Of a DNA stretch of 64,000 nucleotides, positions 1-47,070 are shown piece by piece. The stretch lies in NCBI GenBank assembly GCA_003024785.1, contig PUQB01000554.1, positions 104,278-168,277 on the forward strand, in the 5' to 3' direction. The translations under genes were made by a program, and so were the position numbers. This DNA is from Selaginella tamariscina. Lineage: Eukaryota; Streptophyta; Lycopodiopsida; Selaginellales; Selaginellaceae. How positions within the stretch are numbered: the first letter of the stretch is position 1; every line of letters begins with the position of its first letter. The notes under the pieces were generated by a model. The model was given only the letters and a program-made list of their open reading frames with translations. It was not told the origin of the DNA and did no database searches.

Positions 1-950
1 ATCCCGCCGCTCTAGGACAAACTGAAGAGCGGCGAGATTAATCCCGACGCCCATGGCCTGCGTGAAGGGCCTCGGCGGCGGGATTAATCCCGCCGCCCAC
101 CCATGCCCTGCGCGGAATGCGGCGGGATTTATCTCGCCGGCAATGGCCTGTGTGAAGGCCCTAATGGGCGGGATTAATCCCGCCGATTTCGCGCAGGGCA
201 TTTATAGGGGATGGGCGGCGGGATTAATCCCGCCGCTCATGAGGCTAACCGAAGAGCCTGCATGAAAGATCCTGCACGGAAGGCTAACCGAAGAGCCTGC
301 ATGACATGTCCTGCGCGTAAGGCGGCGGGATTAATCCCGTCGCCCAGGGAATTCACGCAGGACATGAACGGCGGGATTAATCCGCCCCACGCTCATGCCC
401 TTCGCGGAGGGCGGCATGATTAATCCCGCCGCTCAGGCACTTCCGCAGGATATAAGCGGCGGGATTAATCCCGCCCCCACTCATCCCTGTTCAAAATGCC
501 ACGGGATTAATCCCGCAGCCAATATATATGTGTGAGCGCATGATTTACGAGAGGGCGGCGGGATTAATCTCTCCGAACCTTCTATGCCCGGTGGCGGGAT
601 TAATCCCGCCACCCTTCTTTTTTCCTCCATTGGTATGTTGAATCAATCCCGACTAACTCTGTCTGAGACGGAGAAGGTTTAAAATACCAATGGAGGGAAC
701 TGAGAAGGGTGGTGGGATTAATTTCACCATCCCTTACATGGTGGGCGGGATTAATCCGCCGCCTTTCTGGAGCCCCTGAAGGGGTGTGAAAATAAATCCT
801 GCCCAATTCTCTCTGAGAACGAGAAGGTGGCGGATTAATCCGCACACCCATTCAGGCCTCCAGAAAGGTGGCGAGATTAATCCCGCCCACTCTTTCAGGA
901 GGCATTGAAGTGGCGAGATTAATCCCGCCGCACCTTCCATGTGAATATAT
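1..950. repeat. Array of the 18-bp palindrome GGCGGGATTAATCCCGCC
   Basis: At least fourteen intact or decayed copies of the perfect palindrome GGCGGGATTAATCCCGCC lie here. The best copy, at 74-97, extends the symmetry to 24 bp. Spacing is irregular (about 40-90 bp), and spacers often carry CATGCCCTGCG or AGGCCT-like stretches in the first half and CTCCATTGG or CTGAGA stretches in the second. The array starts before the window. One further copy (GGCGGGATTTATCTCGCC) sits inside an intron of the next gene at about 2,669-2,686. No coding sense is seen. I infer a binding-site array of the adjacent ParB-like gene by analogy with 22,893-23,756. Confidence 0.85.
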
Positions 951-1259
951 ATGTTTATGTATATATAAGTTGCATATCTCATTTTATTTACTTTTATCAT
1001 CTTATCATAATATTTCGAGTAAAAGCAGTAAATCTATGTAAACTGTCCAAGCTCACATTTGTGGTGGTTCTAAAACAAATGTTATCTTTTTTTGCACTAC
1101 ACAAATTGAGCTTCGGACAGTTAATCCGTCACTTCTCTCTGTGTATGTATTTTTTGTATATTCGGGTTTATACAAGTGTTGTGCGTTTTTATATAATTGT
1201 ATTCATAGTGTATTATTTTGCAGAAGGACGATTTAATCAAACAAGGAGATCAGATTAGT
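951..1259 (+). promoter_or_regulatory. AT-rich leader of ParB-MTase 1
   Basis: AT-rich stretch between the palindrome array and the first ATG. A polypyrimidine-rich ATTTTGCAG at about 1,211-1,219 looks like a splice acceptor for a leader exon, which then runs directly to the ATG at 1,260. No clear TATA box is singled out. Confidence 0.35.
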
Positions 1260-4200
1260 ATGGAGTCGTCGTCAAATTCTGGGTAAGAATTAAAATAAAA
1301 TCTGTTATACTCGGATATGTGCTTGAAGAATTAAATTTTTGTACAGATGTGGAATTGAGGTGACATTAAAGACGAGAGCAGGAGAAGAGATGGGCAGGGG
1401 GATTCTGGAATCAACTTGGCCATATTTTAAGATAAATGGGAAGCGCATTGGAGCAACCATGGTTGCTGTCAAATTAACCTCTGTCACATCTCATGGACAA
1501 GCAAAACAATGGAAAGTAGATTCGCTAGTCAAGCACCCGAAAGCAGGCTGCGAACCCAGATTGGACGATTCTCGACAGATATGCCTTGTTCCATCCAATG
1601 TCACGTTCTCGGATCCAGAGGTCGCCAGTTACAACATTAATCTTCGGGTGGTTTGTCGACTTGTGGATAATGACGTTCACGTGTTCACTAATGATGTTGA
1701 CCGTGGAGTTCTTCTTCAACTCAACGAAAGCCCATCTATGGAGGGGATCCATTGGATGTCTACTTCGAAGATCTTCAGACTCATCGAGTAGGTGTATTTC
1801 AGAGAGATTGCTTCACAATACAGAAAATCACAAGTGGAGCAATCGTCCCTCTTCACATTGAAGAAGAACACAGCGACATCATAAGGGAGATTGAGAGGGT
1901 GGCTCGGTCTCAGGTTCTTTACAGATCACGTTCAATTTGCTTAGGAAGCTTCGGGAGCTGGAAGAGTGTGCCGAGAACACTAGAACAGCTGCAGTCGGGG
2001 ATCACACATGTTGATTCGGATCGCAAAAGAAAATCATCAATCGTTTTGTCAGCTGCACCTGTGGCATCTCATGCTGCAATAAGTCACAAGGAAATGATGT
2101 TGGATGAAAGATTTATCCTTGTAGGGTTAAATATTGCAGCGTCAACCCAAACTTCAATTACAGGCCACTCAACCAGGAACGTGTAGCTGAGCTCATGGAG
2201 AAGATGAAGGACGACAATTCTTATACCGTTCCACATAATGCTGTTTTGTGTCCATACTATGAAAGAAGGAAGGGCGCTGACAAAGTCTGGATCACAACAC
2301 CAGAACAACTCATGAAGATTCAGACGGAGAATAGAAAATCTATCAAGTACTACATCATTAGTGGCCAGCACACAATAACGGCAGCCCAACGACTTCTCGA
2401 TGAACACAACAAAGGAACGATGGCAACAAAACTTTCCGAGCATACCCGTGAGAAGCTGACAAAAAGATCGGCGTTTTTAAGCCGAATCTCACAATCGAGC
2501 AGTACCATAAGTTATCGGCGGAATGGGACGCTGCCGACACCAACCACTACAACAGCAAAATATGGGAGAAGTTTAAACACACGCGAGCCGTGTGGGAATC
2601 TCTTCAGCGACCACAAAGAGCTACGCAGGAATACACAATCTGCGAATACCGGGTAAGCAAATTGTTTGGGCGGGATTTATCTCGCCGGTATATTAATCTG
2701 TCTTTTTTCTCAGAGAGTTGAAGAAATTGCAGCAGTTGATTTTGCCCAGGTGGGCGGGAAGGAAACATCCTTTCTGATGATGTTGATTTCTTGCCCCGAA
2801 GATAGGATCTTTGCCAAATGGTTGGGGATTATGGAATCCTTTTCAAAAGGAACACTGAAGAAGAAGCAGACAAGTGAAGGGGAGCCCTCAGAAAGTCTGC
2901 AAAGAAACCCAGTAAGACGCCGAAGGCTAAGTCTGTTCAATCTACAAAGGATGTAGACAACGATTTCAAGCTCACATGGTTGAAGCCTTTAAATGGAACA
3001 ACGATGGAGGAGATGGAAGTCTTGGCTGATTTGGTGATCGATGGCAAACTACAAATTAATAACAGCAGCCCAACCTCTCCTTTTCATCTCAAGGCAATGG
3101 AGTTGAAGACGGTCAGGCATTTCAAGGAGTGGTTGGGAATACACTGCCACAAACTGGGTTGGACCTCGACTTCAACATATGAAGAGGTCAGCAAATATTT
3201 GCATGTGACGAACGATGATATGCTTGTCGAATGGGTGAACCAATCGGAAGATCTAGGCAAGAATCTATTGCACGCCAACGCCAAAAAGGAGAACATTGGG
3301 ATGACGCCTTCTCTTATGGCAGTCCTTCAGCAGCGGAGAACCGAATTGAACCTTATAAAGGAGGATGCTACGAATCACGACAAGCCCTACAGATGTTTGT
3401 TGTTAGATTCGGAGACTTTATGGGGTAACATCACTGCTTGTAGGAAACCGTTTCAATTGTTCGTGATGGATCGGCGGGTGTCAAAAAATCTTTCGACAGA
3501 TAGGGCACTAGAGGATCTGGTGGAGAAACTTAGCCGTGCAAGCATATACATAGAAGGTATTTATTATTGAATTCATGCTTGCGCTCTTCACTGATACCTA
3601 CTTTTTCAGGTATTTATTTCTTGATTCTTGCTCATGTCACCGATACTTTTGCCTTGCCTTCGCCAAGAAGAATAGACATCGTTGGACAGGATTTTATATG
3701 AACGATGCTAATCCCAAGTGCATTGATACCGTTGTTCACTTGGTTGTTAGGAATGCGCCAAACAATTTCAAGCTTCCAAATGACTGGCCAGGCATCTGTT
3801 TGCACTCCAACGGCCCTGAACCTCCATCCGATACACCGATAGGTGAGAGTGACGTATTCGGCAATGTACGTTATCCAAACATTACAAGTCAAGCGGCACG
3901 GAGCATCGTCAACTTGATCAGGGGTCCTCACAGTGATGCGTGGGTTTTTGACTACTGCACTAGGGGGTCCGTCTTGAAGGAGTGTTACCTTCGGCATACA
4001 TGTGTGTTTGCCGTTGAAAAGGATAAGACCATGGTTGAGGACCTGAACAAGTGGATAGATAGGTCTCAACTGAGTACCCCAACGAATCCATAAAGGAGTA
4101 TTTGAGAAAGTTCCCTCCAGAAGTGCGATAGCTCTGAAGACGAATCTGGTTCAATGTCGGAGTCTGGACGAACTTCAATCAGATATTAGACCGGAAGTTA

Positions 4201-4311
4201 TCTCGAGGAGTACAGAACATTCACATACCCATGGAAACATCAATAGAAGATACAGAAGATCTTGAACCATCTCACAAGCGGCTTAGACCTTCTTCCTCAC
4301 TCAGAAGGTAA
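1260..4311 (+). CDS. ParB-like / DNA-methyltransferase-like fusion protein (copy 1)
   Basis: Four exons can be read: 1,260-1,282, 1,347-2,652, 2,714-3,556 and 3,610-4,311, all with GT-AG introns of 53-64 bp. The first part (to about 2,110) resembles nothing I know. At 2,120-2,420 comes a ParB/Srx-like domain: RPLNQERVAELMEKMK, then YYIISGQHTITAAQRL, the ISGQHR-type box of the family. The C-terminal third resembles a circularly permuted (beta-class) N4/N6 DNA methylase: the motif IV strand QLFVMDRRV comes first, the SAM-loop AWVFDYCTRGSVLKE and CVFAVEKDK follow. The catalytic D-P-P-Y is replaced by D-R-R-V, so activity is doubtful. The tail is acidic, then KR-rich. Frame changes occur near 1,750, 2,115, 2,450, 2,900, 3,690 and 4,070; the stop could be at 4,129 instead. 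It shares domain order with the gene at 23,834-27,058. Confidence 0.7.
2653..2713 (+). other. Intron carrying a palindrome-family copy
   Basis: This 61-bp GT-AG intron of ParB-MTase 1 contains GGCGGGATTTATCTCGCC, the same motif variant found at about 121-139 in the upstream array. Intron placement of a putative site of the encoded protein is notable. Confidence 0.7.
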
Positions 4312-4853
4312 TAGCGAAGAAGAATTATTGAATGCTTAGAGTGATGAATAGTTGTAAATGAGTGTAACATAAGGCATTTTTGTATATTTCGTTTATATTT
4401 GTACAGAAAATAAATTCTCAAGGATTAATGAAGCTTTTAGTTCAAACATGGGTCACACATTAACAAGGTAAATAATATACCTTGATAATTTTAAGGTCAG
4501 CTAATTATCATTTTGCAGATGTAATGAAAATTGAGAACATGGATTTTCAGCATTGCCATGAGGTAAGAGAGGGGTTTGGCGAAATTTCTTGTGCCACATG
4601 TCAGAATGACAGAGTTCATGCAGGAAATGGATAATAATGCAGCTCAAAACATCGTTACCATGGGGCCACTTCGTTTTTTCATCATCATTTTTATTGGCTT
4701 CAGTTCCGAAATCAATTTCTTCAGCATGCAATATCTGAATCTTGTAAGGATGATGTACAATTAAATGATGAAGGGATAGGCAACGAATAGTGCAACATAT
4801 AAATGTGAAAGGGAGCAAACAAGTGATTTGCAAAGTATTCAAGAGGCAACGCT

Positions 4854-5572
4854 ATCCATGTTACTCATGGCCATATTGTGTTGTTGGATGTCAATGGTGT
4901 TCTGCTTCATCGACAAAGGCCCGAGGATAGGAAAAAAGAAATCAAACAAGGAGATTTCATTCCTTGTCATGGTAAATTTCGATATGATATTATTTTTCGT
5001 CCAGGGTTGGATCGTCTCTTTCAAAAGCTTAAGGAGATGGGTGCGCTTGTGGGGATTTGGTCATGCATGCAGATTCATAACTTAACACCGCTGTTGAATT
5101 TGCTTAAGAAACATTGTAGTGTTGCAGAAGAGGTGATTCGTAAAGATTGGATTTTTGACCAGCGAATATGTTATAAACCTCTCGAATTTCACAATATAGA
5201 AAGGAAAGCAAGCCATACTTCTTCAAGAATGAAAGAATAATTGGGACTCATGGGGAGATCAGTCGCTTAAGGATAATGAAGAACGCACATATCTTAGTAG
5301 TAGACGACTCTCCTCAGAAGGCTATGCTCAACCAAAACATTGCTTGTATTCATCCAATCACTTTCGATCCATATTCTGATACCGATATCATGGATGAGCT
5401 AGTGAACTACTTGGATACGTGCCTCAGAAAGAAGAATCTCGAAAATTTTTGTGAGCAGTATCCACCGTATCAACATTTCCTGAAGCTTTTCTTTCTCGTG
5501 ATTTTGTTTTATAAAATGAAGGATAGCAACCGGGCGCTTTATAATATTATTCTTAAGGAACGTCATTTTTAG
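4854..5572 (+). CDS. FCP1/NIF-type HAD phosphatase-like protein
   Basis: The reading starts in an open frame at about 4,854 and shows the FCP1-homology (NLI-interacting factor) fold. Motif I is LLDVNGVLLHR, with the second Asp replaced by Asn as in several plant members. FRPGLDRLFQKLKEMG and GIWSCMQIHN follow (motif II region), and the end has LVVDDSPQKAMLNQ and FDPYSDTDIMDELVNYL (motif III and after). Family members dephosphorylate phospho-Ser/Thr, for example of the RNA polymerase II tail; the target here is unknown. A frame change lies near 5,205 and no convincing start codon or upstream exon was found, although a short exon with ATG near 4,538 is possible. It lies 540 bp after ParB-MTase 1 in the same direction and may be a gene captured by that element. 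Confidence 0.6.
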
Positions 5573-6042
5573 ATGAGCCTTTATGCAGACCTCTCTTATA
5601 CATCTTATGTATTAACAAGGATGGCAACTCCCAATTGCATTCGTGAGAGTGTTAGTGGTGGCAACAACATCAAGATATTGACCAAAATGATTTGATTAAT
5701 CCGGAGAGTGATGATTTAGACAAAATGAGATTTCTCTGTATGTTAGAAGAAAGTATTTAAAAAATTAACATGTTGATAAGAAAATGATTTCATTTGTAAT
5801 TATGTTTGATAGTATTTTTCATTATTGTAAACTATTTTTAGAATAATATGAATATTCTAAGATATTTTAGGAATATTCCTTACTAAGTAAGGTTATTGAA
5901 GGATTAATTTTAATTAATTAATATTTAAGGCTTAATTACATATTAATTAAATAATTAATTAATAATTAAAACTTAAGTATTAATTAGTAATTTATTTTAT
6001 ATTCCCATTTTCACGTATCATGCCCACTTTAGTTACAACGTG
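5573..6042. other. AT-rich stretch with possible right edge of element 1
   Basis: No gene seen. At 5,850-5,878 GAATATTC occurs twice around TAAGATATTTTAG, resembling the clustered GAATATTC motifs just inside both ends of the 18,989-27,235 element. A GATTAATCC half-copy of the left-array palindrome sits at about 5,691. Together these hint that the element carrying ParB-MTase 1 ends near 5,850-5,900. Confidence 0.3.
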
Positions 6043-7312
6043 CATGGTTTAGTTAGAGACAGCTTGGCTATACTCGGACCCAGAGAGGGGTTTAGTTAGA
6101 GATAGCTTGGCTATACTCGGACCCAGAGACACTTGTCTACTTACTCTACGCTTGGCTGTGCACATGTGATCGAGGGGACCCAGAGACATTTGTCTACTTA
6201 CGTTACGCTTGGATGTGCACATGTGATCGAGGGGTTTAGTTAGAGACAGCTTGGCTATACTCGGACCCAGAGACACTTGTCTACTTACGCTACGCTTGGC
6301 TGTGCACATGTGATTGAGGGGTTTAGTTAGAGACAGCTTGGCTATACTCAGACCTAGAGACACTTGTCTACTTACGCTACACTTGGCTGTGCACATGTGA
6401 TCGAGGGGTTTAGTTAGAGACATCTTGGCTATACTCGCATACTCGCATCACATGTCAATCAGGCCAAAGGCGGACCCAGAGACACTTGTCTACGCTTCGC
6501 TGTGCACATGTGATCGAGGGGTTTAGTTAGGCCAGAGACACTTGTTTACTTACGCTAGGCGGACCCAGAGACACGGGTTTAGTTAGGCCAGAGACACTTG
6601 TCTACTTACGCTAGGCGGACCCAGAGACACTTGTCTACTTACGCTAGGCGGACCCAGAGACACTTGTCTACTTACGCTAGGCGGACCCAGAGACACTTGT
6701 CTACTTACGCTAGGCGGACCCAGAGACACTTGTCTACACTTCGTTGTGCACATGTGATCGAGGGGTTTAGTTAGGCCAGAGACACTTGTCTACTTACGCT
6801 AGGCGGACCCAGAGACACTTGTCTACACTTCGTTGTGCACATGTGATCGAGGGGTTTAGTTAGGCCAGAGACACTTGTCTACTTACGCTGTGCACATGTG
6901 ATCGAGGGGTTTAGTTAGGCCAGAGACACTTGTCTACTTACGCTACACTTGGCTGTGCACATGTGATCGAGGGGTTTAGTTAGAGACAGCTTGGCTATAC
7001 TCGCATCACATGTCAATCAGGGGGTTTAGTTAGAGACAGCTTGGCTATACTCGGACCCAGAGACACTTGTCTACTTACGCTACGCTTGGCTGTGCACATG
7101 TGATCGAGGGGTTTAGTTAGAGACAGCTTGGCTATACTCACATCACATGTCAATCAGGCCAGAGGCGGACCCAGAGATCGAGGGGTTTAGTTAGAGACAG
7201 CTTGGCTATACTCACATCACATGTCAATCAGGCCAGAGGCGGACCCAGAGACACTTCGCTGTGCACATGTGATCGAGGGGTTTAATTAGGCAAGGGGTTT
7301 AGTTAGGCAAGG
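6043..7312. repeat. Satellite-like tandem repeat, about 90-bp unit with 33-bp sub-unit
   Basis: The full unit contains GTTTAGTTAGAGACAGC, TTGGCTATACTCGGACCC, AGAGACACTTGTCTACTTAC and GTGCACATGTGATCGAGGGG. A shortened sub-unit (GGACCCAGAGACACTTGTCT plus CTTACGCTAG) repeats head to tail at about 6,600-6,720. Deletion variants alternate with full units. An apparent open frame on the minus strand (6,049-6,423) is only the repeat read through and is not called as a gene. Confidence 0.9.
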
Positions 7313-18562: not shown

Positions 18563-18988
18563 TCAGATAGTTTTTGACCATTTCAAACAGTAACTTGTAT
18601 TTCCTCTAGCACAGTGAGAGTACACAGACAATCGCCACCATTTAACCCTCAACCAGTCGTGATCTAGAGCAGCCTGTGCCGTTAGTTTTGAACCCGGACG
18701 CAATGTCCTTGAACGCAACAAAGCTCGGTGTATGATAAACAAACGACTTACAAAGCTTACCCACAAGCCACAAGTCGCATTCCTTGGTGTACCGTCCATC
18801 CGGCATCATCGGAATTTCGCTGCTCCACGCACTTAGTGGAACATAACTGGGTACCTCACCTGCCTGCCACACTGTTTCAAAATCCATAAGAAACCATCCA
18901 TCCTAGCAGCAGAGAATGTTCCCTCCCTATGCACAAAATCCATCTCATGGAGCTGCTGCAAACCTTGCAGGACGGGTCTCGGCGAAAA
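18563..18988 (-). pseudogene. Protein-kinase-like gene, 3' piece (catalytic loop to end)
   Basis: On the minus strand the reading gives VLQGLQQLHEMDFVHREG (kinase catalytic loop, HRD here HRE), then GFLMDFETVWQAGEV (the position of DFG), DGRYTKECDLWLVGKLC (activation-segment end and subdomain IX D-x-W) and LTAQAALDHDWLR (kinase C-terminal RP-x-A-x-x-x-L-x-H-x-W-like). Three frame changes are needed. The sequence breaks off at 18,988 where the DNA element begins; the matching upstream pieces lie at 27,236-27,807, 38,007-38,543 and 43,408-43,450. The style recalls atypical Crinkler-like kinases known from plants and fungi, but that subfamily assignment is only a suggestion. Confidence 0.55.
18969..18988 (+). 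repeat. Left copy of a 20-bp imperfect direct repeat flanking the DNA element
   Basis: AGGACGGGTCTCGGCGAAAA abuts the left terminal repeat. It matches AGGACGTGTCTCATCGAAAT at 27,253-27,272 in 16 of 20 positions. The right copy is 17 bp away from the right terminus, so this is not a clean target-site duplication. Confidence 0.5.
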
Positions 18989-19009
18989 GGAGGCTCCGGC
19001 TCAGGAGGC
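18989..19009 (+). repeat. Left terminal inverted repeat of element 2
   Basis: Starts GGAGGCT, ends CAGGAGGC; pairs with 27,214-27,235 on the opposite strand. Confidence 0.6.
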
Positions 19010-19011
19010 TA

Positions 19012-19118
19012 TTATTCTAGTATATTCGCGGATATTCTAGGGTTATTCTAGCATATTCTAGAATATTCTCAAGAATATTCTAGAATATATAAGTTTTTTT
19101 AATATGCCGACTGGCTTA
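19012..19118. repeat. Left subterminal palindrome cluster of element 2
   Basis: Repeated TATTCTAG and GAATATTCT blocks including AGCATATTCTAGAATATTCT and AAGAATATTCTAGAATAT, followed at about 19,108-19,117 by TGCCGACTGG, the stem motif of the internal hairpin array. Subterminal repeats of this kind are usual transposase-binding sites. Confidence 0.65.
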
Positions 19119-19146
19119 ATAAACATTATCCTAAACCCTAAACCAT

Positions 19147-22100
19147 TTATCCTTGTAGCACCGGTGGGTCATGAACTCTGTTGCAATTCACCAGCAAACG
19201 GTGGACCTCCATGTCACTGAGCGATCGCCTTTGTAGAAAATATGTGACTTCCGGGTTCAAGCCAAGCACACGGCTATAGACGAAGTACATGTGTACACAT
19301 GGGCTCCAACTTTTGCTCTTCTGAAATGTAGAACAACTGCATGAAGGATAAGTATTAATAGTCACCTTTGCAGAGTCATTTCCTGCCGACACAACGAAAG
19401 CCTCCTTCCGTCCTCTAGCTGTCACTTCAACATTTCGCACACAACCTAAAAACGTCTTGGCCTTGCGGAAATTCTTCTCTTGTTCCTTAGACATTTTTGT
19501 TGGAGTCCGAACCATACGTCCTTCGAAAGGTGGAATTGTTGTAGATCCAGCTCCACGTGGTGGCGATGGTGTTTTGTCCTTCTGACCCTCATCTACTCTT
19601 CCTGCCATCCCCTGTAAACCTTCCAGAACAAAGCCTGCATCCTGTAGTTCTCTGACCTCCTCACTTGTCAGCTTCGTTTCCTTGAGCACAGGCCAAACCG
19701 TTGGTGGTGTTGGAATTCGTGACCGAAGAATTTTGCCGTTTGGCCGCGTGAAACACCCTGAATCTTTTGGGCAGAACCACATCATCTGTTGTACATACTC
19801 CTCATTCCCCAAGGCATCAATGTACATTCGTTTTCCATAGAATCCTGGTGCTGGCACTCTGCTTGGATAACCGATTGGTTTTCCACACAGAGCAGTTCCT
19901 TCCTGATTCATCCCCAAACACTTAACCTTACTGGATGCTCCGATTCGTCTGATGGCCCACTCTGTTTGAGCAATCTCTCTCTCCGAAACCTCTTCGAACC
20001 TTAACCTCTTTCTCCTGTTGTTTTGGACCACCCGCTCTGTGTACTCTACATCATGTCTGTGTGAACGTCGAGCATCAGACTGTTCTGTTCCTGTGACTGT
20101 TCTCCTAACAGTTTGCACTCGAACGTTAGTGGTACTCGTGAACTCCGGGCTGGTCAAGTGTTCCTCGCCTTCCACCAGATTAATAATTGTTGATGGAGAT
20201 ACACTTTTCCCCTCAGAGAGTTTGCGTTGCACTCGTTTCAACAGAGTTTCCTTCGAAGGCCCTGACCCTGTATACCTCCCTTCTATTGCCGCTTTCACCT
20301 TCGCACTCTGCATAACTGCATCGGTGAGGTCTAACATTGTCGCCTCCAGCAGTGGTACTCTTTTGGCCAATCTTGCTCTTCTTGCTCTCGCGTGAATCAC
20401 TTCAGCATTGTTTGTAGTTGGAACGCTCGCGAGTCCTTCTTCTGTCATGTCTCCCAGTTCCGCCATGGAGATGTGGTCCTCATGCCTGATCCACCAAGAC
20501 AGCCATGTCTTCAAAGCTCGAATGTTTGACGCTCGTCCTTCCCAAAAGACTCGAGAATTGCCAGTTGTTCTTTCTTAGATTGTTCATTCAGTGCTGCAGG
20601 CCAGGCACGAGCAAGCTTCATGTGTTCTTCGCGATGTTCTTCTGCGATCCATTTCTTTGTCACCTGACGCACGGATTGCATAAAGTGAAACAGACAGCTT
20701 CTTTCCCTCCCTTTCATCTTTGCTCCGTTGTTGAATACTTGGCGCAAGGCTATCCATATCGCTCCAGCCTCATCCGACATGAAACCAGCAAAGTTGACAT
20801 TCTCCAAACCCTGCTTCTTACAAACCTCTAGCATTGTGTTCAAGAACTTCAGCACTGCAACATTATCTTCGCGGCACATATCTGCGTAAGCTATAGTCAC
20901 CATGGATCTGACACTGCAAGAGAGCGTTAGATAACGAAGATTAGAAAGTGTTATGAAGAGTTTTACAACTTACAATGGGTCATAAAGGTGTATTCCAATT
21001 GTCGCCCAGTCTGGTATGCGGTGCGTGTGGTCCAGAACAACCCATTGATCATGAAGGTCTCCTCCACTTTGACACCTTCTGATGTACTCAACTCCTGAAC
21101 CCGGTCCCTCAACTGTCATTTTGAAGATCAGAGGCTGCTCCTCAGCACCATGCAGTTCCATCCCTGGAACATGTATGACGTGAATGAAAGGTATTGGCAG
21201 CTTTGTCTTCAGCTCCAGAAGACCCTCGTAACCCTCTCTAAAGTGTGTCTCCTTCTGTCTTGATTGTGTAATCCAGTCCCGAGTCCTAAAGAAAAGGTCA
21301 CGTCAGTGTGTAGAGATCTAAAAAAAATACCTTCGATGGTTTGTTAGAGGTTCAAGTTTTGAGAGTAAACCAGTGTACGAGACTTCTCCTTCTTCCTTGA
21401 AAAGTTCTTCAAAGATGAGCTCACGCGCGGCTTGAAACTCAATCACTCGTTGATTGGTTCGCGGACTGCTCTTTACCACGTTGCTGACACTAGATCTGGC
21501 TCGCTGAACGTTTGAAGCTGACACTGAGGGGCTGACTGGATGCTGATGAACACCTCTGTGAATGAACAACCTTGTAAAAGAAATGTCGTCTGGCAGAATG
21601 TAGTACACATAAGCCGGACAAGTGTGCACCAGCAATGGCTCCTCTCCACAATGCTTACATTTTATGCCTATTACTTTGCCTGTCTCAGTTGTCTTTGCCT
21701 TCTCCACAGCACCCTTGAAGTGACATTCATTTGCTTTCTTCTCAAAAGCCAAGTAGGGGCAGGTAGGATTGATGCATTGGAGATGTCCGACACATGAACT
21801 TCGACTGACTCGCGCCGGAACATGCCAGTGTGTTGTGCTCGGGTGTGTCCAATGGTAGCAGCCATCCTTGCGATTCATCCCCGAGTACTTCTCTGTGCTT
21901 TCTGTCTTAGGGGGAAGTTCGAAAATGACATTTCCATTGTATATCTGCGGTAGTTCAGAGACTCGTTTAACTTCAGACGAACCAATGAGATCCTTCCCTA
22001 TCCTACATTTGTCTGCTCTTAGAAGACACACCAGCATGGATTCCTCACGCTCCTCTGTCCGCAACCTGAACAACGGGCCCTTTGCCGGGCACAATGTGTA

Positions 22101-22310
22101 AAAGACAAACTGGTTTGATGCATTGCCTTCTGGTAACAACTCCACATCTTCTCCAGAACTCGCAGAAACTGACATCAATTGAACCACATGTATACTGAAC
22201 CAACAAGGAATGTTGAAAGCAATGTGAAGATCATGTTCAAACACAAAAGCATTTCCATCTTCATCGACTGGGAAATCTTTGTCAATGCCTTCATAGGTAA
22301 CTCTGGCCAT
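19147..22310 (-). CDS. Mutator-like DDE transposase with zinc-binding N terminus and SWIM finger
   Basis: Three exons on the minus strand: 22,310-21,331, 21,285-20,974 and 20,913-19,147, with one frame change near 20,515. The start ATG (MARVTYEGID) opens the first long frame. Residues about 165-270 are Cys/His rich (CVGHLQCINPTCPY, IKCKHCGEEPLLVHTC, RGVHQHPV), a likely DNA-binding zinc domain. The DDE core reads QWVVLDHTHRIPDW (first Asp), NFAGFMSDEAGAIW (second Asp), SCLFHFMQSVRQ (the C/H box after it) and PTTNNAEVIHARA (the final Glu). Near the end TYPSCSCSTFQK plus SPCVHMYFVYSR gives a CxC...CxH SWIM finger. All three acidic residues are present, so the protein could be active. It is transcribed away from the ParB-MTase gene at 23,834, 1.5 kb off. 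Confidence 0.8.
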
Positions 22311-22892
22311 GACAACGCAAGGAGAAAGCTCGGTGGTTTAGGAAAGCAAAGCAAAAGATTAAACACACTTTCCTTACCAAAAAAAAATTACAATCGTTAA
22401 CAATAAACGTGAATACACGTTTGTATATAATTAATTCTATGCTGCCCAGTTCACAGTGTTCTTAATGATGTCCTCTCTAGTATCACCGATTTAATTTAAT
22501 TTCTACCTTTTATGATTTGAAATATCTTCACATTTACCAATTATTCACATATTTTAAAATAAACCCTAAATATTAATGTCACATTTATTCCGTAGGGTTC
22601 ACTGTTTTCATTGCGGCTAGGGTTTTTTGGTAGATAGGGTTTACTGTTTCCATTGCGGCTAGGGTTCTTTCAATCTCAGATCTGTTTCCACTGCGGCAGA
22701 TCCAGAGGGTTTTTTCAATCTCAGATCTCAGAGTTACGGTTTCCACTGCGGCGCCATCCATTTCGACTCGATTCGTGCAGCGCCCACAAGTGGAATTTAA
22801 TGCACGATTCTCCTTGATTCCTGCAGCCGGCCACAAGGTATGTGTAATTTCTGTATTTTATGATTTGCTGCTCAAAGTATTTCTTTTTCCAG
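22311..22892. promoter_or_regulatory. Divergent promoter region with four TGTTTCCAYTGCGGC repeats
   Basis: Lies between the transposase start and the hairpin-exon array. Four copies of TGTTTYCAYTGCGGC occur at about 22,603, 22,645, 22,683 and 22,738 (the last starts CGG), two followed by TAGGGTT. The stretch ends in CCGGCCACAAG before a donor GTATGTG (about 22,838), the same exon end as every unit of the array, so it probably holds the first leader exon. Confidence 0.55.
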
Positions 22893-23756
22893 AGATATAG
22901 GGTCTTCTTATTTGTGCCGACTGAGAGCAACGGCACCATCCTGGTTCAGTCGGCAAACACAAGGTATCGTCGATTTATTTATTTTTTTCCTTGCGGCTCA
23001 AGTATACGTGTCACAATGTTTTTTTTTCAGAGTTAATGGGTCTTTCCATTTGTGCCGACTGAGAGTGACGGCACCATCCTGGTTCAGTCGGCAAAAACAA
23101 GGTATTTTCGATTTGTTTTTTTTTTTTGCTTTCTGGCTCAAGTATTCGTATCACAAGGTTTTTTTTTCAGAGTTAATGGGTCTTCCCATTTGTGCCGACT
23201 GAGAGTGACGGCACCATCCTAGTTCAGTCGGCAGCCACAAGGTATGTTCGATATATTTATTTTTTGCTTTCTGGATCATGTATTCGTATCACATTGTTTT
23301 TTTTCAGAGTTAATGTGTCTTCTCATTTGTGCCGACTGAGAGTGACGGCACCATCCTTCTTCAGTCGGCAGCCACAAGGTATTTTGAATTTGTTTATATT
23401 TTGCTTGCGGCTCAAGTATCCGTATAACAATGTTTTTTTTCAGAGTTATAGTGTCTTCCCATTTGTGCCGACTGAGAGTGACGGCACCATCCTTCTTCAG
23501 TCGGCAGCCACAAGGTATTTTGAATTAGTTTTTTTTTTCTTTGCGTCTCAAGTATTTCTTTTAAAACAGTTAATGGGTCTTCCCATTTGTGCCGTCTGAG
23601 AGGGACGGCACCATCCTATCTCAGTCGGCACCATTATCTCTTCAGTGCCGTCTGACAGAGTCGGCACAAACTATCTCAGTCGGCAGGTTTTTTCTTCTAC
23701 ATCTCTCTGCCGACTGAGAGGGTCGGCAGCATCTAGCTTGAGTCGGCAGCCACAAG
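22893..23756 (+). repeat. Tandem array of 71-bp leader exons encoding a stem-loop
   Basis: Five exons of exactly 71 bp (22,893-22,963, 23,031-23,101, 23,171-23,241, 23,308-23,378, 23,444-23,514) and a longer sixth (23,570-23,756). Each follows a T-run plus CAG or CCAG and ends in ACAAG before GTAT or GTTA, so every unit is a complete exon with acceptor and donor; introns are 55-69 bp. Each exon carries TGCCGACTGA and, 21 bp on, TCAGTCGGCA, a perfect 10-bp inverted repeat (first units), and also the overlapping pair GTGCCG/CGGCAC, which would form a competing hairpin. The 71-bp length is not a multiple of three, so these are read as 5' leader exons of the gene starting at 23,834. Confidence 0.8.
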
Positions 23757-23833
23757 GTTAGTCATCTTTGTTTGTTTTTTTATTTTGACTCCTCATCAAT
23801 TGACTTGTGTGTTTACTTTCCAGAGTTCCCAAA

Positions 23834-26800
23834 ATGGTGAGAGCTTCAAAACGTCTACTAGAGACTGCGCCTGATGAAGAGCCACGGGAAGAGAAGAGGA
23901 TATCGAAGCAGAAGCGAGGCAAGAGAGGAGAACCATCTAATGTAGCAAAGGAGGATCCTCCAGTGACTCAGTCTGGAGTAGTAGCAGTTGAGCAAGAACA
24001 GCCTCCACCAACAATCACAGATTTCCCGGAGAGCTCGTCGCAGTTGCCTCCTTCATCCGCTGAGGTTGCAGTCCTGAACGAGCAAGTGCAGATGACAGAG
24101 GCAGCTGAAGCTAGCGAGGACGACTTGGAGGAGGCAGTCAGCAAAAAGAGAGGCCGCGGGAAAGCTGATTCAAAAGGCAAGAAGGCGAAGAGCGATAAGG
24201 AGCCGAAGGAGTTATACAGCATACCGGCGAGCCTGCATTTGGAGAGCTCAGCAAACCTGCTCGACAAAAATTACTTATCAGGGACTTGGTGATCCTCCTG
24301 ATGTGCCCATCTGCAGAATACATTCCAACGAGGTGGTTCGACGAGTGAACCCAGGGGACTTGGACAGGCTGGTGTCATCGTTGAAGAAGGCTGGTTATCT
24401 ACGCAACACGGCCTTGTTCATTCTGTCCATCGGAGATCGACTCACTGCTGAGGAGCTATCGGAGCTGTCGAAGGACACGATTCAGTACGAGCAGCACCGG
24501 TCTTTCGAGCAAGCTCTTACTCAGCCGGAGTACAAACAGTGGGCTTCAAGGCTCTCAAACAGGAAGTTTAGCTGCTGGGACGGGAACCATAGGCTACAGG
24601 CTTTGCAGAAGCTGTACCGAGAGGATGCAGAGGACAACCAGCGATGGGCTATTCGCGTTCGATCGAGTTTCATCTCCACGGAGAACCTCGACATTCTTCA
24701 ACTGGTTTCGATGTTCCAATCGATTAACATGTGAGTATTTTCTTTTCTTTTTGTTAAGAGTTTAGACTTACAGTTTCGTTGAACAGATCTTCAGCAACAT
24801 CTGTGGAAACAACGCTACCACATATTCTCCTCGCTGTAAAGGCGGTCTGCACTAGTACAGAAGGAACTCAGAAAATCCTCGAGTCACTCACGGAGGTTGA
24901 TCGTCTTGAGGTGCGGAAGTGGAAGGAGAGTTCATCAAGGAAAGACGGCTTGGCATCCTCTTCCGAACCTGATCTGCGCAAAGATACTTTTCAAGGTAAC
25001 CTCCGATTTAATTTATAGGAAAGAAATTTTTAACTTGTTCTATGTGCAGAACGAGATCGACGATGATCTCGACAGAGCAGTCACCAGTGCTAAGGGCAAT
25101 CACAGGTTGAGGTGAACCTAAGCAGCTAGTGTACAAGAAGCATGACAAGCGTATGCACAAGTTCCTCTCCATCATAGACCCAGACTTGGGGGAGGAGTGG
25201 TTCCAGAAGGTGACAAACATCTCTCATAAGCAGTGTCGCTGGATGGGCATTGAGAAGCTGTATGCGATGTCAAGGGCGAAGATTCCAAACATGCTGCGAC
25301 TCCGATACCTGAACAAGCTCACCCGTCTCGAATCCAAGGCAGAACAACAGACACTTGGGCTACCGGGCATGCAGGACAAAGAGTGGATCAAGTGGTTCAC
25401 CTTGGACTTATATTGGAAGGCTGTGCGCGAGGAAGCCATTCAGATCCTTAAGGGGTTGCGAGAGGATGGTGAAGAAGTTGGAACGGATGTCGACTTCATG
25501 AGCTGGTTTGACGAGATGAGAATTCGGAGCAAGTGCCTGGTCTTTCAGCCCTTCCATGACTGCATACGGTTCACTTATTCGATGGAGCCGAATGAGTTTC
25601 TGGAGCGTGAGGAATCTGCGCGTCGGATGATATGGAGGTAAGCTTTCAATCCAGCATTGCTACTGTCTGACTTTGTGTTGCAGGTTCATACTGGCGAAGC
25701 AAATGACACCGTCCCATACGATGAAGCTGTGGACAGATCATACAAGCGAGCCTCACATGTGGTCGAAGAGCAGAGGAGCTCTAACACCGTTCGAACGGGA
25801 GCATGTTCCATTCTGGCTCGACTGTCCGTCGCAACAGCCACCAGCTTGGGAGAGCACACTATTCGACATGCACGCAATGATCTACCAGCGATTGTTTGGG
25901 AGCCAGAAGAAGTAGAGGCTATCAAGAAGAGCAAGATGAAGAAGACGGTGCGGAAGACAACTACACCTGCAAAGGGATCGGGAGCGGGACCAAGCTCTTC
26001 TACAGCACCTCCGCCGGCATTCGACTTTACAATCAATGAGGTACAGCCACTTGTAGCTAGTTTGGACATCAAGGACGACCTGATGACCTTCATCCCGACC
26101 CTGGCTGCATCCCGTGGATCCTACGACCTAGCTGTGTGCGACATGGAGGAGATGAGCAGGTCTTTCTTCGAGCCAGGTGCTTCCCAGACAGAGGTGTACA
26201 CCAAGCTCCGAGAACAGGTTGACAGACTACATACGGTTGAGTCACAAACGTTGTTCCAGGAAGTGGTAGGTGAATACGGCTTCAACCTCATCATCCTCGA
26301 CTTGCCCAATGAGCTTGTATATGGAGGTGCTAGCATCAACAAGGACATTGTGCAGCTAGATCCGGTGAAGTTTGAGGAGGCCTTGCAGTTCAGTGGAATG
26401 CACTTGGCAGCGAGTGGTTTCATGGTCGTCTTCGCGAGTTCTCCTTCTGTTTCGGCGGTGATTCAGGCGGCTGCAGTAATCAACTTGGAGGTTGCAGGGA
26501 CTTACAGCGTCTACCGTGCACGAGGCTGGGGATACCGTGACAAAATTAAGGTAAGCTAGCTATTCAAGTTCAAGTTTAACTTGGTCTATGTGGCAGGATA
26601 ACTTGTTAGTTCTCTTGGTGCTGCAAAGCTCTGAGAAGAAGTCGAAGAGGCCAAACCCTCTGGCGTTGACGAACACGATCCTCGTCGACACTGCCGACCG
26701 TTATCAGGAGGCTTGGTAAGGAAGTGCTTTGCTATGTTTATCCTAATGGAAGTTGTGCAGGATTATGATTCAACCGAAGAGTGTTCGACTCATGCAGCTT

Positions 26801-27058
26801 TTGATCGAGCGTCTCAGTAGACCTGGCGACCTAGTCTGGGATATTGGTTCCGGAACCGGGTCATCATTGTTAGCTGCCGTCGAGCTCGGAAGGAATATTA
26901 TAGGAACCGAGAAGAGTTTCGAACTCTCTAGGTTGGCAACAAACAAGCTTGCAGAGAACATTAGACCAGAAGAGTTACCTACTCAAACACCTCCACGTCC
27001 AAGCGTAACTGGTGGTTCGAGAACTGCAGCTTTACTTAAGATGAAGAAGAAACTTTAG
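23834..27058 (+). CDS. ParB-like / DNA-methyltransferase-like fusion protein (copy 2, best preserved)
   Basis: Six exons: 23,834-24,730, 24,787-24,995, 25,050-25,637, 25,684-26,550, 26,597-26,715 and 26,761-27,058. The N-terminal 130 residues are charged and KR-rich (GKKAKSDKEPKEL), a likely nuclear signal. A ParB-like domain follows: VPICRIHSNEVVRRVNPGDL, LDRLVSSLKKAGYL, and CWDGNHRLQALQKLYRED (the G-x-R/H-R box). The middle is a helical region of unknown type with WIKWFTLDLYWKAVREEA. The C-terminal half is a permuted beta-class DNA methylase: GFNLIILDLPNELV at motif IV (D-L-P-N, not D-P-P-Y), FSGMHLAASGFMVVFAS, then PGDLVWDIGSGTGSSLL (SAM loop, motif I) and NIIGTEKSFELSRLA. The family normally methylates adenine N6 or cytosine N4; the altered motif IV leaves activity open. 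Frame changes near 24,275, 25,000, 25,112 and 25,910. Confidence 0.8.
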
Positions 27059-27110
27059 CTAATGTATATTGAGTAATAAATTAAGCTAATATAAAAAAAA
27101 AAAAAAAATA
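27059..27110 (+). terminator. Poly(A) signal of ParB-MTase 2
   Basis: AATAAA at 27,075-27,080, 17 bp after the stop, followed at 27,093-27,108 by a run of sixteen A. The A run may be a relic of a reverse-transcribed end or a simple repeat. Confidence 0.5.
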
Positions 27111-27134
27111 CAACAGTTTTAATAGAATTCTTTT

Positions 27135-27213
27135 TTGCCGACTGAGGCCAATACTGCCGACCAGAAAGAATATTCCAAAATATTCTAGAATATTCTTGAA
27201 TATTCGAGCCCAG
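27135..27213. repeat. Right subterminal motif cluster of element 2
   Basis: TGCCGACTGAGGCC and TGCCGACCAG at about 27,136-27,162, then AATATTCTAGAATATTCTTG and TATTCGAGCC. Mirrors the left subterminal cluster. Confidence 0.65.
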
Positions 27214-27235
27214 GCCTCCTGGGCCCCAAGCCTCC
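27214..27235 (-). repeat. Right terminal inverted repeat of element 2
   Basis: On the minus strand begins GGAGGCTTGGGGCCCAGGAG; pairs with 18,989-19,009. Confidence 0.6.
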
Positions 27236-27807
27236 AAATGGCGGCACTCTTGAGGACGTGTCTCATCGAAATTCAGTTGATCTTCATTAACAGGAAACTT
27301 AAGTTTCCCAATCGGCTCAACATCCACCCTATAAAACACCTGCTCTGCTACACTTCGGTCTCTGGATGCCCAAGCCTTCCCCCAACTCGTGTTAGATGGC
27401 CTATATGCCTTTTGAACAAACTCCAGACGGGTTGTATCTCACTGAAGCAGTCCGTCCCAAGACTGGACAGCTATCCAACTTCCGTCACCTCTCTCGTTAC
27501 CACTGTGATCACGAATCTCAAAGTGTTGAAAGAGCATTGCAGGACCTTATTATCCTTTCTGGTGAGCTCATTGTTAAAGGTCCAAGCAGTAGACTCGGTG
27601 GATCAACACGCTACCGGTAGAGTGCATAATAGCCAATGGTATCCCGGGAAGTTGCAGATCCAACAATGCAACGCCTTAGCAGTTTCACTATACATAAGAA
27701 GACTCAACGGGCTAAGCTTTCTGAAAAGCTTCATATCCAGGCACGTCCAAGCTTGCCTTCTTTTCTTCGTGCAGGTAAGTTAGCTCACCGTCTGAAATAG
27801 ACATGTT
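27236..27807 (-). pseudogene. Protein-kinase-like gene, middle piece
   Basis: Minus-strand reading in several frames: ELTYLHEEKKASLDVPGYEA, FNNELTRKDNKVLQ and, next to the DNA element, RVDVEPIGKLKFPVNEDQLN ending FDETRP. The latter meets, across the element, the piece whose reading begins with the VLQGLQQLHEM catalytic loop, which is why I place both in one gene. The piece is bounded by element 2 on one side and the copia element on the other. Confidence 0.45.
27253..27272 (+). repeat. Right copy of the 20-bp direct repeat flanking element 2
   Basis: AGGACGTGTCTCATCGAAAT, partner of 18,969-18,988. Confidence 0.5.
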
Positions 27808-44207: not shown

Positions 44208-47070
44208 ATGCACGCACACGGCAAATGCAGGCAAGAGATTGTGGGATCAGACAGAGTGATCTTGTCAGAGAACAACAAGGGACTTTACAAAAGAAGAACA
44301 CAGGAAAATCGTAACGCTGCATGGGAATTTGCTGCTGCACTGAAAGAATGTAGCAAGACAAGGGACTTTCAAGGCGGGAAAAAACTCCACTCGGACGCAG
44401 TTACATCAGGTTGTCACACAGACAAGTTTGTAGCCTCCGCCTTGATAAACATGTACATCAAGTGCGGGAGCATCCAGCAGGCCAAGGAGGTCTTCGATAA
44501 CACTATCCACCGGGACGCTGTTACATGGAACTCCCTGATGATGGGATACGTGGAGAATGGGGAAAGCTCACTGGCTTTGGACTTATACACACGCATGAGC
44601 TTTGAGCCAACGCGTGTGACGTATATTGCTGCACTCAAGGCGTGTGCGTGCTTGGCTACTGAGAGAGCATCAATGAAGGATATATACTTGGAGAAGGGAA
44701 GTGCCATTCATAGAGAGCTTAAGGACCGCGGGTTTCTCTCATGTATATTTGTGAGAAACACCTTGATAGACATGTATGGAAAGTGCGGGAGCATGCAGAG
44801 TGCTCGAGAAGTCTTTGACACTGCAACTCATCAAGATGTTGTTACCTGGAACTGCCTTTTAATGGGATACGTGGAGAATGGGGAAAGCTCATCGGCTCTG
44901 GAGCTTTTTGAAAGCATGGATTGCGAACCCAACCATGTTACATATATTGCTGCACTCAAAGCTTGTACATGTCTGAAGGAGGGAATTGCCATTCATGAGC
45001 AGCTCAAGGCTCGTGGATATGGTACTAATAGATCTGTCGCGAACTCCTTGGTGGTAATGTATGGGAAGTGTGGAAGTATGCAGTACGCATGGGAGGTCTT
45101 CGAGAGCATGACTTACCGAGATGTCGTTGCATGGAACTGTCTCATCGGTGGATACGTGGAGAATGGGGAATACTCAGTTGCTATTGAGTTCTTCAACACA
45201 ATGGACTGTAAACCGGACCATGTTACATATGTTGCTGCCCTCAAGGCGTGTGCAGGATTGGCAACTGAGAGAGACGCTGAGAAGCATGTTTTTACTTGAG
45301 AAAGGCATTGCCATGCACAGACGGCTTAAGGAACAGGGATTCGCTGCCAACGTATTTGTAGCAAACACCTTGTTGGATATGTATGGAAAATGCGGTTGTA
45401 TGCAGCTAGCCAGGAAGGTCTTCGACAATATAACTCACCGAGATGTTGTTTCATGGAACACTCTGATTCTGGGATACGTGGAGAATGGGGAGAGCTCAGT
45501 GGGACTGGATTTGTTCTTTTGTATGGACTCTCAACCAGACTCGTTTACATATGTAGCTGCACTCAAAGCTTGTGCAAACATGTCTTGTCTGGCAAAGGGG
45601 ATTGTTATTCACAAGCATCTCAGGGACCATGGATTCAGTTATCACATACATGTGAGAAACGCCTTGCTGGAAATGTATATGAAATGCGGTAGCTTACTTC
45701 ATGCCCAGGAGGTTTTCGATGACACAAAGAATCGGGATGTTGCTACATGGAACACACTTATATTGGGATACGTGGAGAATGGGGAGAGCTTGGTGGCTCT
45801 GGAGATTTCACAAGAATGAACTGTAAACGTACACGTTTTACATACATAGCTGCACTCAAGGCCTGTGCAAGCTTGGGTGCTCTTAAGAAAGCAGTCTCTA
45901 TACACCAAGAGCTTAAGGAGTGCGGATATCAATCCGACATAATGGTAGAAAACACACTGGTGTACACGTATGGGAAAATGGGGAATATGCAGCATGCTAA
46001 AGGATGTCTTTGATAACATGCTTTCTCGAATGTTGTTACATGGAACTCTCTCAATTGGGATACGTGGAGAATGGGGAGAGCTCAGTCGCTCTGGATTTAT
46101 TCGCAAGAATGGATTGTAAGCCCAGTTATGTTACATATCTCGCTGCACTGAAGGCAGTGTAGGGAAGCACTGTCTGGAGAAGGGTATAGCGATCCATAAA
46201 CAGCTCAAGGATTACGGTGTTCATCCCGACTTAGCGTTAACAAACACTTTGTTAGCATGTATTGCAAGTGCGGCAGCATGCACCATGCACAGGAGACTTT
46301 TGATCTCGTACTATATAAGGACGTTGTTACATGGAACTCTCTGATATTGGGATACGTGGAGAATGGGGAAAGCCCAGTAGCTATAGAGTACTTCACTATA
46401 ATGGACTGCGAACCAGACTGTGTTACATATCTTGCGGTTCTCAAGGCGTGTGGGAACATACTTACAGTACCATATGGAGAATACATTCACAGGAGAGTGT
46501 GTAAGCAGGGGGTTGAACACGAGCAAGGCGTTGCAAATGCTTTGGTGAGCTTCTATGGGAAGTGTGGGAGAATGGATTATGGCCGAGGAGCTCGTTTCTT
46601 GCATGTCTTCTCCTGATATAGTTTTCTTGGACGGCCTTGATAGCGGGTTACTCTTCGTGTGGGGATTCATATAAGGTGTTCAGTGTGGTTGAGAAGATAC
46701 AGGAAGCCGGGTTAAGGATGAACAGTGTTACGTTCACTTGTGTACTGGCTGCTTGTAACCATGCAGGGCTCGTATACAAAGGGAAGATGTGTTTCAAAGC
46801 TATGGTGGAGGACGGTATTCAGCCGGATTTGGAGCATTATAATTGTATACTCGATATGTTGGGCGAGTAAACAAGCTGGAAGAGGCGTTGTATATGGTGA
46901 AAGTATGCCTTTCGAAGGTGATGTGTATACATGGACGTGTTTGTTAGGGGCGTGTAGGAAATGGAATGTGGAAGTGGGGAAAGTTGCATTTGATGCATTG
47001 GTGTCTGAAAACGAGGAAAATGCAGCTGCGTATGTGATGATGCGTGATATATGGGAGTTCGAGTACGTAC
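44208..47070 (+). CDS. PLS/E-class pentatricopeptide repeat protein
   Basis: PPR proteins of this class bind organelle RNA and usually specify C-to-U editing or processing in plastids or mitochondria. About eight P-L-S cycles can be read, each with MYGKCGSMQ, a REVFD-type helix, RDVVTWN, GYVENGES and VTYIAALKAC. The cycle ends with VTFTCVLAACNHAGLVYKGK, the second-last motif, and an E motif MPFEGDVYTWTCLLGACRKW plus VEVGKVAFDALVS and AAYVMMRDIWE. No DYW domain follows in the window. Frame changes occur near 45,285, 45,815, 46,005, 46,040, 46,160, 46,250, 46,605, 46,635 and 46,870: more than elsewhere, so it may be a pseudogene. The first exon start is uncertain; ATG at 44,208 lies in a CA repeat and a GCAG acceptor at about 44,230 is an alternative. 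No transit peptide is visible. Confidence 0.75.

Follow-up and report, generated by a model that had tools for sequence, protein, structure and literature searches.

How does a transposon of a land plant come to pair its transposase with a gene whose protein is ParB-like in one part and amino-methylase-like in another, and what might such a protein do for the element that carries it? The question is raised by a 64,000-nucleotide stretch of the Selaginella tamariscina genome (contig PUQB01000554.1, positions 104,278 to 168,277; hereafter the window), in which an original prediction made from the sequence alone had placed a ParB-like/methylase gene opposite a Mutator-like transposase. The genome assembly of which the window is part (300,702,823 bases in 1391 contigs) was examined for further copies of this unit, and the family is a genuine, recently amplified and recently mobile DNA transposon with two divergent genes.

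Shared ends and target duplications

The whole element spans 18974..27249 of the window (8276 bp), limits that follow from the common ends of its copies and from target duplications. At their left limits the copies have GGGTCTCGGCGAAAAGGAGGCT in common, and at their right limits ..CTCCAAAATGGCGACACTC, the termini in full being GGGTCTCGGCG...GGCGACACTC, at which their similarity stops and beyond which the sequences diverge. The single bounded unit that had been predicted is thus borne out, its earlier limits of 18989-27235 being discarded as the copies stay similar for about 15 bases farther out on each side. The terminal repeats, described earlier as imperfect, are indeed imperfect inverted repeats of about 22 bp, as judged by eye from the aligned copy ends: the left one (18974..18995, plus strand) is recognized from the shared copy ends and from genome matches, and the right one (27229..27249, minus strand), also seen in the shared ends, matches it imperfectly. 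A scan of the copies places the window's target duplication as TTGCAGGAC at 18965..18973 and TTGAGGAC at 27250..27257 (both plus strand), the right partner being without one base.

Twenty copies (with handles of the form L010) were fetched for comparison, these being the best 20 of 39 scored non-window matches to the window's left 1.2 kb, a choice that leaves their left halves more alike than those of a random sample would be. Both ends were found in 18 of the 21 copies scanned, window included, L023, L026 and L027 being without a recognizable end; the prospect that other copies would end at different points is thereby set aside, as they share the same ends. An exact 9-bp target duplication borders 9 of these 18 copies and a near match another two (L018 and the window), while it is absent from seven (L009, L010, L011, L021, L022, L024 and L028). 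A 25-bp target duplication was initially suspected and then rejected, since the copies show the element end followed by the 9-bp duplication.

With at most two mismatches, the left end occurs 411 times in the genome (206+205), against 0 for the control, and all 12 of the 12 zero-mismatch termini checked (one per contig, in listing order) run on into 1.5 kb or more of transposase DNA; two pairs among them have common flanks and may be the same site in two haplotypes. With the first 1.2 kb of the unit as originally delimited there were 799 candidates, 40 of which were scored (window included) and are 96-100% identical; the other genome comparisons have 72, 128-129 or 150 scored matches, and counts drawn from any of these sets are lower bounds. 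The full-length unit is present in 18 of the 20 fetched copies, L023 being without the right part and L027 amounting to 1.9 kb only. Over about 8.3 kb, 15 of the 18 aligned units (17 plus the window) lie 2-31 substitutions from the majority, which points to a recent burst, the more diverged units being L015, L019 and L010 with 70, 104 and 142 substitutions, respectively. Their differences fall mostly in the right half of the unit, partly because the copies were picked by their left ends.

The right flank of L010 is the same as the left flank of L024 (GAGAGCTTG), both being copies without a target duplication, and therefore some copies seem to have swapped halves, through recombination or misassembly. 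Some copies also resemble mosaics of old and young halves. At the window's own insertion site, ISMRHVLQGLQQLHEMDFVH reads on the minus strand through the joined empty site (flanks 18563-18973 and 27258-27440), and the insertion may break a kinase-like gene, for which the suspected flank gave no Pfam match.

Two genes that recur together

The divergent gene pair, with members 2.1-3.4 kb apart, is found at no fewer than 38 of the 72 listed transposase places (as against 129 listed ParB matches), a single listed pair having another arrangement, so the notion that the two genes might never be found together elsewhere falls away. Approached from the ends, of the 100 perfect termini listed, at least 33 are followed 4-7.5 kb inward by a ParB match on the expected strand; conversely, among the 69 listed ParB matches on contigs C1-C633, at least 33 have such a terminus and none has it on the wrong strand. 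Further zero-mismatch termini were sampled, one per contig for 20 contigs in listing order with C258 left out, and the central/ParB region was at the expected distance in 15 of these 20.

The transposase gene, on the left and on the minus strand, has three exons with short introns. Exon 1 is predicted at 21331..22310 from its open reading frame and GT-AG sites; exon 2 (20974..21285) bears VLDHTH, with a possible first acidic residue; and the long third exon has FAGFMSDEAG and CLFH in its first part (20530..20913) and a SWIM-like finger in the remainder (19147..20529). The SWIM profile matches with E 0.0087 and E 0.04 in two scans, below the curated cut-off in both, and the profile scans gave this sub-threshold finger and no match to the MULE transposase profile (PF10551). 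The Mutator-like character that had been predicted fits the 9-bp duplications, the terminal inverted repeats, the FAGFMSDEAG and CLFH motifs and the SWIM-like end; for want of a MULE profile match, the element is therefore called Mutator-like and not placed as a MULE member. One relative is found among public proteins (P0001, 26% identical over 98%), and it retains the motifs FAGFMSDEAGA.W and GRERSCLFH.

The transposase had been described as complete-looking, a description that fails for the window, where the frame breaks near 20530, at the end of an exon part that is open in other copies. In 12 of the 72 listed places the long exon is open throughout, without a stop (607 amino acids in 11, 606 in one), and at 21 of the 72 the same 475-amino-acid remainder of the split exon is present, the window's own split lying at 20510-20575. 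From this common remainder it follows that either a frame-split transposase subfamily has spread or else there is a systematic assembly error; perhaps the split copies were moved in trans by copies with a whole exon. L014 has the long exon whole and a frame break in exon 2, and in none of the 20 fetched copies were all exons of the two genes shown to be open. That the window holds a complete active copy is ruled out by the frame breaks in both genes.

A ParB-like and amino-methylase-like protein

The second gene, on the right and on the plus strand, codes for a protein of about 990 amino acids. Its first exon (23834..24730; frame break near 24284, open in other copies) holds a lysine-rich N-terminus and the ParB-like domain with WDGNHRLQALQ, and the middle region (24787..25637; frame trouble near 25110) has no matches. 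The first half of the methylase domain, with motif IV in NLIILDLPNEL, lies at 25684..26550 (frame break near 25912), followed by a small exon at 26597..26715 and by the last exon at 26761..27058, which carries motif I (DIGSGTG) and the methylase matches. In L020 the spliced gene is open for 974 residues across five exons, without about the first 36.

The methylase part is matched by the N6_N4_Mtase profile (E 9.7e-10 and 1.1e-08 in two scans), by PHROG_67 (E 4.3e-12) and, as the best solved chain, by 1g60_A, that is, MboIIA (E 0.00076); its motif IV precedes motif I, giving a beta-class order. The usual catalytic motif IV of amino-methylases is [DNS]PP[YFW], and in all 19 of the 19 copies holding this motif it is instead DLPN, because of which catalysis appears doubtful. 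Motif I is unaltered in 16 of the 19 copies holding it and changed in L010, L015 and L016. The ParB assignment is made from the layout and from the WDGNHRLQALQ box, presumably typical of ParB/sulfiredoxin-like domains; comparison of this part with the PDB gave no credible match, and the model of its core fold is poor (mean predicted local distance difference test score, pLDDT, 38.6). Thus, the fusion proposed in the original prediction stands as to the methylase, by profile and with activity in doubt on account of DLPN, and as to ParB is carried by box and layout, without a profile. Searches of 5.8 billion proteins with the second gene scored 7991 and 2037 candidates, not one of which reached E 0.01, and two queries of viral contigs gave no relatives.

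The pattern of substitution suggests that the protein has been kept. Relative to L020, the ratio of nonsynonymous to synonymous changes (pN/pS) is 0.32 in L010, 0.23 in L019 and 0.55 in L015, and synonymous changes number 50 in L010, 27 in L019 and 20 in L015, where random placement would give 33, 12.6 and 17.3; the observed count was reached in 1 of 300, 0 of 300 and 69 of 300 random trials, respectively. The second gene is thus under purifying selection in two of the three diverged copies (L010 and L019), and the second protein has therefore been kept in at least two lineages.

Motif arrays in noncoding DNA

The motifs said to be common to both subtermini and the middle are there, and they are confined to noncoding DNA of the element. 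TGCCGACTG occurs 15 times, once near the left end (19105..19113, plus strand), 13 times within 22915-23716 and once near the right end (27136..27144, plus strand), with 0 occurrences in the remaining 55.7 kb of the window and a first-order Markov expectation of 0.055 (maximum 1 in 200). The central sites belong to an array at 22840..23791 (plus strand), found by motif scans, of units of about 140 bp with inverted TGCCGACTGA pairs, of which there are five in the centre with 21 bases between the arms. Judging by CAAG|GTA and TTTCAG|AG sites, each unit resembles a small exon with its intron, belonging to the second gene's 5' untranslated part. Across copies the array varies in number, with 13 central sites in 18 of the 21, 10 in L013, 7 in L019 and 0 in the shortened L027, and with additional repeat units in L023; 20 of the 21 copies have one or two sites close to the left end, and 17 have one close to the right end.

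A second, palindromic motif, the heat-shock-element-like TTCnnGAAnnTTC, lies in the left subterminal region at 19040..19090 and in the right at 27167..27206; the unit has 5 matches where 0.21 would be expected (maximum 2 in 200), and the other 55.7 kb has 1. These palindromes at both ends are placed as if heat responsive or as transposase sites. A chance assembly of motifs was considered and is ruled out by the Markov expectations for TGCCGACTG and TTCnnGAAnnTTC.

What the second protein might do

We favor, with a probability of about 0.42, the reading that the second protein may be a VANC-like, self-targeting anti-silencing factor of this recently amplified two-gene Mutator-like transposon. 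Its ParB-like domain would bind the TGCCGACTGA pairs, both those of the central promoter/5'-untranslated array and those next to the two ends, and the binding would hold open the element's own regulatory DNA, countering host silencing as Arabidopsis VANC does. Because motif IV is DLPN, the methylase-like domain would mainly be a DNA- or cofactor-binding part, or else a weak writer. Several points weigh against such a role: the window's second gene is frame-broken near all three positions given above, the ParB part has no support from Pfam, PHROG or NCBIfam profiles, the ParB region is not at the expected place in 5 of the 20 sampled termini, and L015 shows no clear selection on the gene. Instead, the motifs might be there for the transposase or for transcription, and a DLPN motif IV could still be functional. 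To our knowledge, moreover, VANC proteins have no ParB or methylase domain, and the likeness to VANC is therefore one of layout only.

Distinctly less probable is an active writer, a protein that would bind the array and put N6-methyladenine (6mA) or N4-methylcytosine (4mC) on its own element as a mark unseen by host silencing through 5-methylcytosine (5mC), an idea also put forward for algal elements in the sections of PMC12477816 that treat them. The N6_N4_Mtase and PHROG_67 matches would suit it, as would the largely unaltered motif I and a best solved-chain match that is an adenine methylase. The departure of motif IV from [DNS]PP[YFW] in every copy holding it tells against it.

Somewhat further down the scale, and unlikely, comes a transposition cofactor, a helper of the MURB type that would assemble the ends through binding to the subterminal motifs and the central ones: the sites near the left end in 20 and near the right end in 17 of the 21 copies agree with this, as does the recurrence of the two genes together, but 13 of the 15 sites in the window's copy are central and distant from the ends, and the palindromes TTCTAGAATATTC close to the ends seem better situated to be transposase sites. 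That the element picked up the gene as an idle passenger is improbable; frame breaks in the window's copy and several others would be expected of it, against which stand pN/pS values well below 1, the synonymous excess of L010 and L019, the want of an internal stop in the first 75 of the 129 matches listed for exon 1, and a constant place and orientation relative to the transposase. A role like that of plasmid ParB, clustering or segregating the element's DNA at parS-like arrays, is more improbable still, for although a ParB-like box lies beside inverted or palindromic motif arrays in two families (the second is described below), integrated DNA needs no partition and general profile scans gave no ParA-like match, no search aimed at ParA having been made.

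Were the protein to bind its own array, as the anti-silencing reading would have it, plant transposons would carry bacterial-type sequence-specific epigenetic tools, convergent with Arabidopsis VANC. The family, with its 411 left termini and the array in most copies read, may be seen as a natural test of protein-aided escape from silencing, and it also bears on whether any plant 6mA/4mC originates from transposons.

A second family with the same layout

At the window's left edge lies part of a second family that repeats the layout of the main element with a different transposase-like gene: a DUF7869 gene, CGGGATTAATCCCG arrays and a ParB-like gene (window 79-4310; L029:1192-3516). Its motif scan places part of a CGGGATTAATCCCG array at 79..850 and its ParB-like gene, with the box SGQHTITAAQRLL, follows at 1270..4310 (plus strand); the DUF7869 profile match (E 1.3e-19) is in the DNA left of the window (L029), as is the other array, the CGGGATTAATCCCG palindromes numbering 16 perfect ones in 82 kb in two arrays of 8. 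L043 (1298-5995) is another copy, 95% identical over 5.8 kb, with 15 palindromes and an open exon of 478 amino acids. Genome searches gave 5431 first-look candidates for the ParB-like exon and 5747 for the DUF7869 exon, with 150 scored in each case and all matching; among the matches listed the two exons lie within 15 kb of each other in at least 9 cases, of which the window is one, always in divergent order and at a distance of 9.2-10.0 kb, where about 2.2 pairs in any arrangement would be expected by chance. The ParB-like proteins of the two families align best at the box, and weakly (E 0.011 for one comparison); the methylase likeness of the second family's C-terminal part was seen by eye, and no profile supports it. 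We infer that this family too is a transposon, its ends and target duplication not having been found.

These parallels raise the possibility, tentative and somewhat short of even, that a portable self-targeting module, a ParB-like/methylase-like protein with its own motif array, may have combined with two or more unrelated kinds of transposase in a single land plant (the SWIM/Mutator-like one, where the motif is TGCCGACTGA, and the DUF7869 one, where it is CGGGATTAATCCCG) and would drive the success of these elements by marking their control regions or shielding them. The large candidate count, with 150 of the 5431 scored and all matching, suggests that the layout is a successful one in this genome.

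Phosphatase-like open reading frames (LLDVNGVLLHRQRP) lie 3' of the second family's ParB-like gene (window 4850-5700) and are kept in L043:6559-7693, with no Pfam match. Elsewhere in the window, diverged tandem repeats form two blocks (6046-7294 and 44430-46460), the second overlapping PPR-like open reading frames; by eye there are retroelements and PPR- and AP2-like open reading frames, which fits a plant host, and Rfam and tRNA scans of the window were empty.

Comparison with known systems

MuDR, a Mutator element, resembles the present one in its 9-bp duplications and in having a second gene, mudrB; that gene is not known to be ParB- or methylase-like, and the MuDR genes converge between long terminal repeats. 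Bacterial and phage amino-methylases (PHROG_67, MboIIA) share the beta-class order, with motif IV and then motif I, whereas the second gene here has a degenerate motif IV, about 990 codons' worth of protein and introns. As described in PMC5735166 and PMC10398659, the target bound by VANC21 is a 9-base motif repeated in tandem in noncoding regions, and VANDAL21 with VANC is on that account alike in being a Mutator-type element that encodes a second protein and holds a short motif densely in noncoding tandem repeats, the number of which varies; unlike in VANDAL21, the two genes of the Selaginella element point away from a central array.

A survey of Mutator elements (PMC6446971) has in its main text no words starting with 'ParB', 'methyl' or 'Selaginella', and the literature consulted, mostly outside subscription journals, yielded no ParB-methylase transposon gene for land plants. 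The claim that such a passenger is without precedent in plant elements holds at most for land plants and yields to the algae: in its account of these elements, PMC12477816 describes Ectocarpus Sola1-1_Ec32, in which a protein of 1104 amino acids with ParB-like and N4C/N6A methyltransferase parts is encoded opposite a Sola1 transposase, cites comparable green and red algal elements, and puts forward the idea that proteins of this kind bind the transposon encoding them and modify it.

On that account, Sola1-1_Ec32 and the Selaginella element are both large transposons with a ParB-like and 4mC/6mA methyltransferase-like gene on the strand opposite the transposase, the protein having 1104 amino acids in the one and about 990 in the other. 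Sola1-1_Ec32 belongs to the Sola superfamily and to a brown alga, and the passage describing it mentions no arrays, whereas the present element has a SWIM transposase, 9-bp duplications, a land-plant host and a DLPN motif IV; relative to the algal accessory proteins as reported there, the protein here matches a methylase profile, is ParB-like by its box and without a ParB profile match, and is encoded on the opposite strand within one mobile unit. As algal ParB-methyltransferase genes also lie opposite a transposase, the element is not wholly unprecedented and is instead a land-plant, Mutator-like variant of a kind known from algae.

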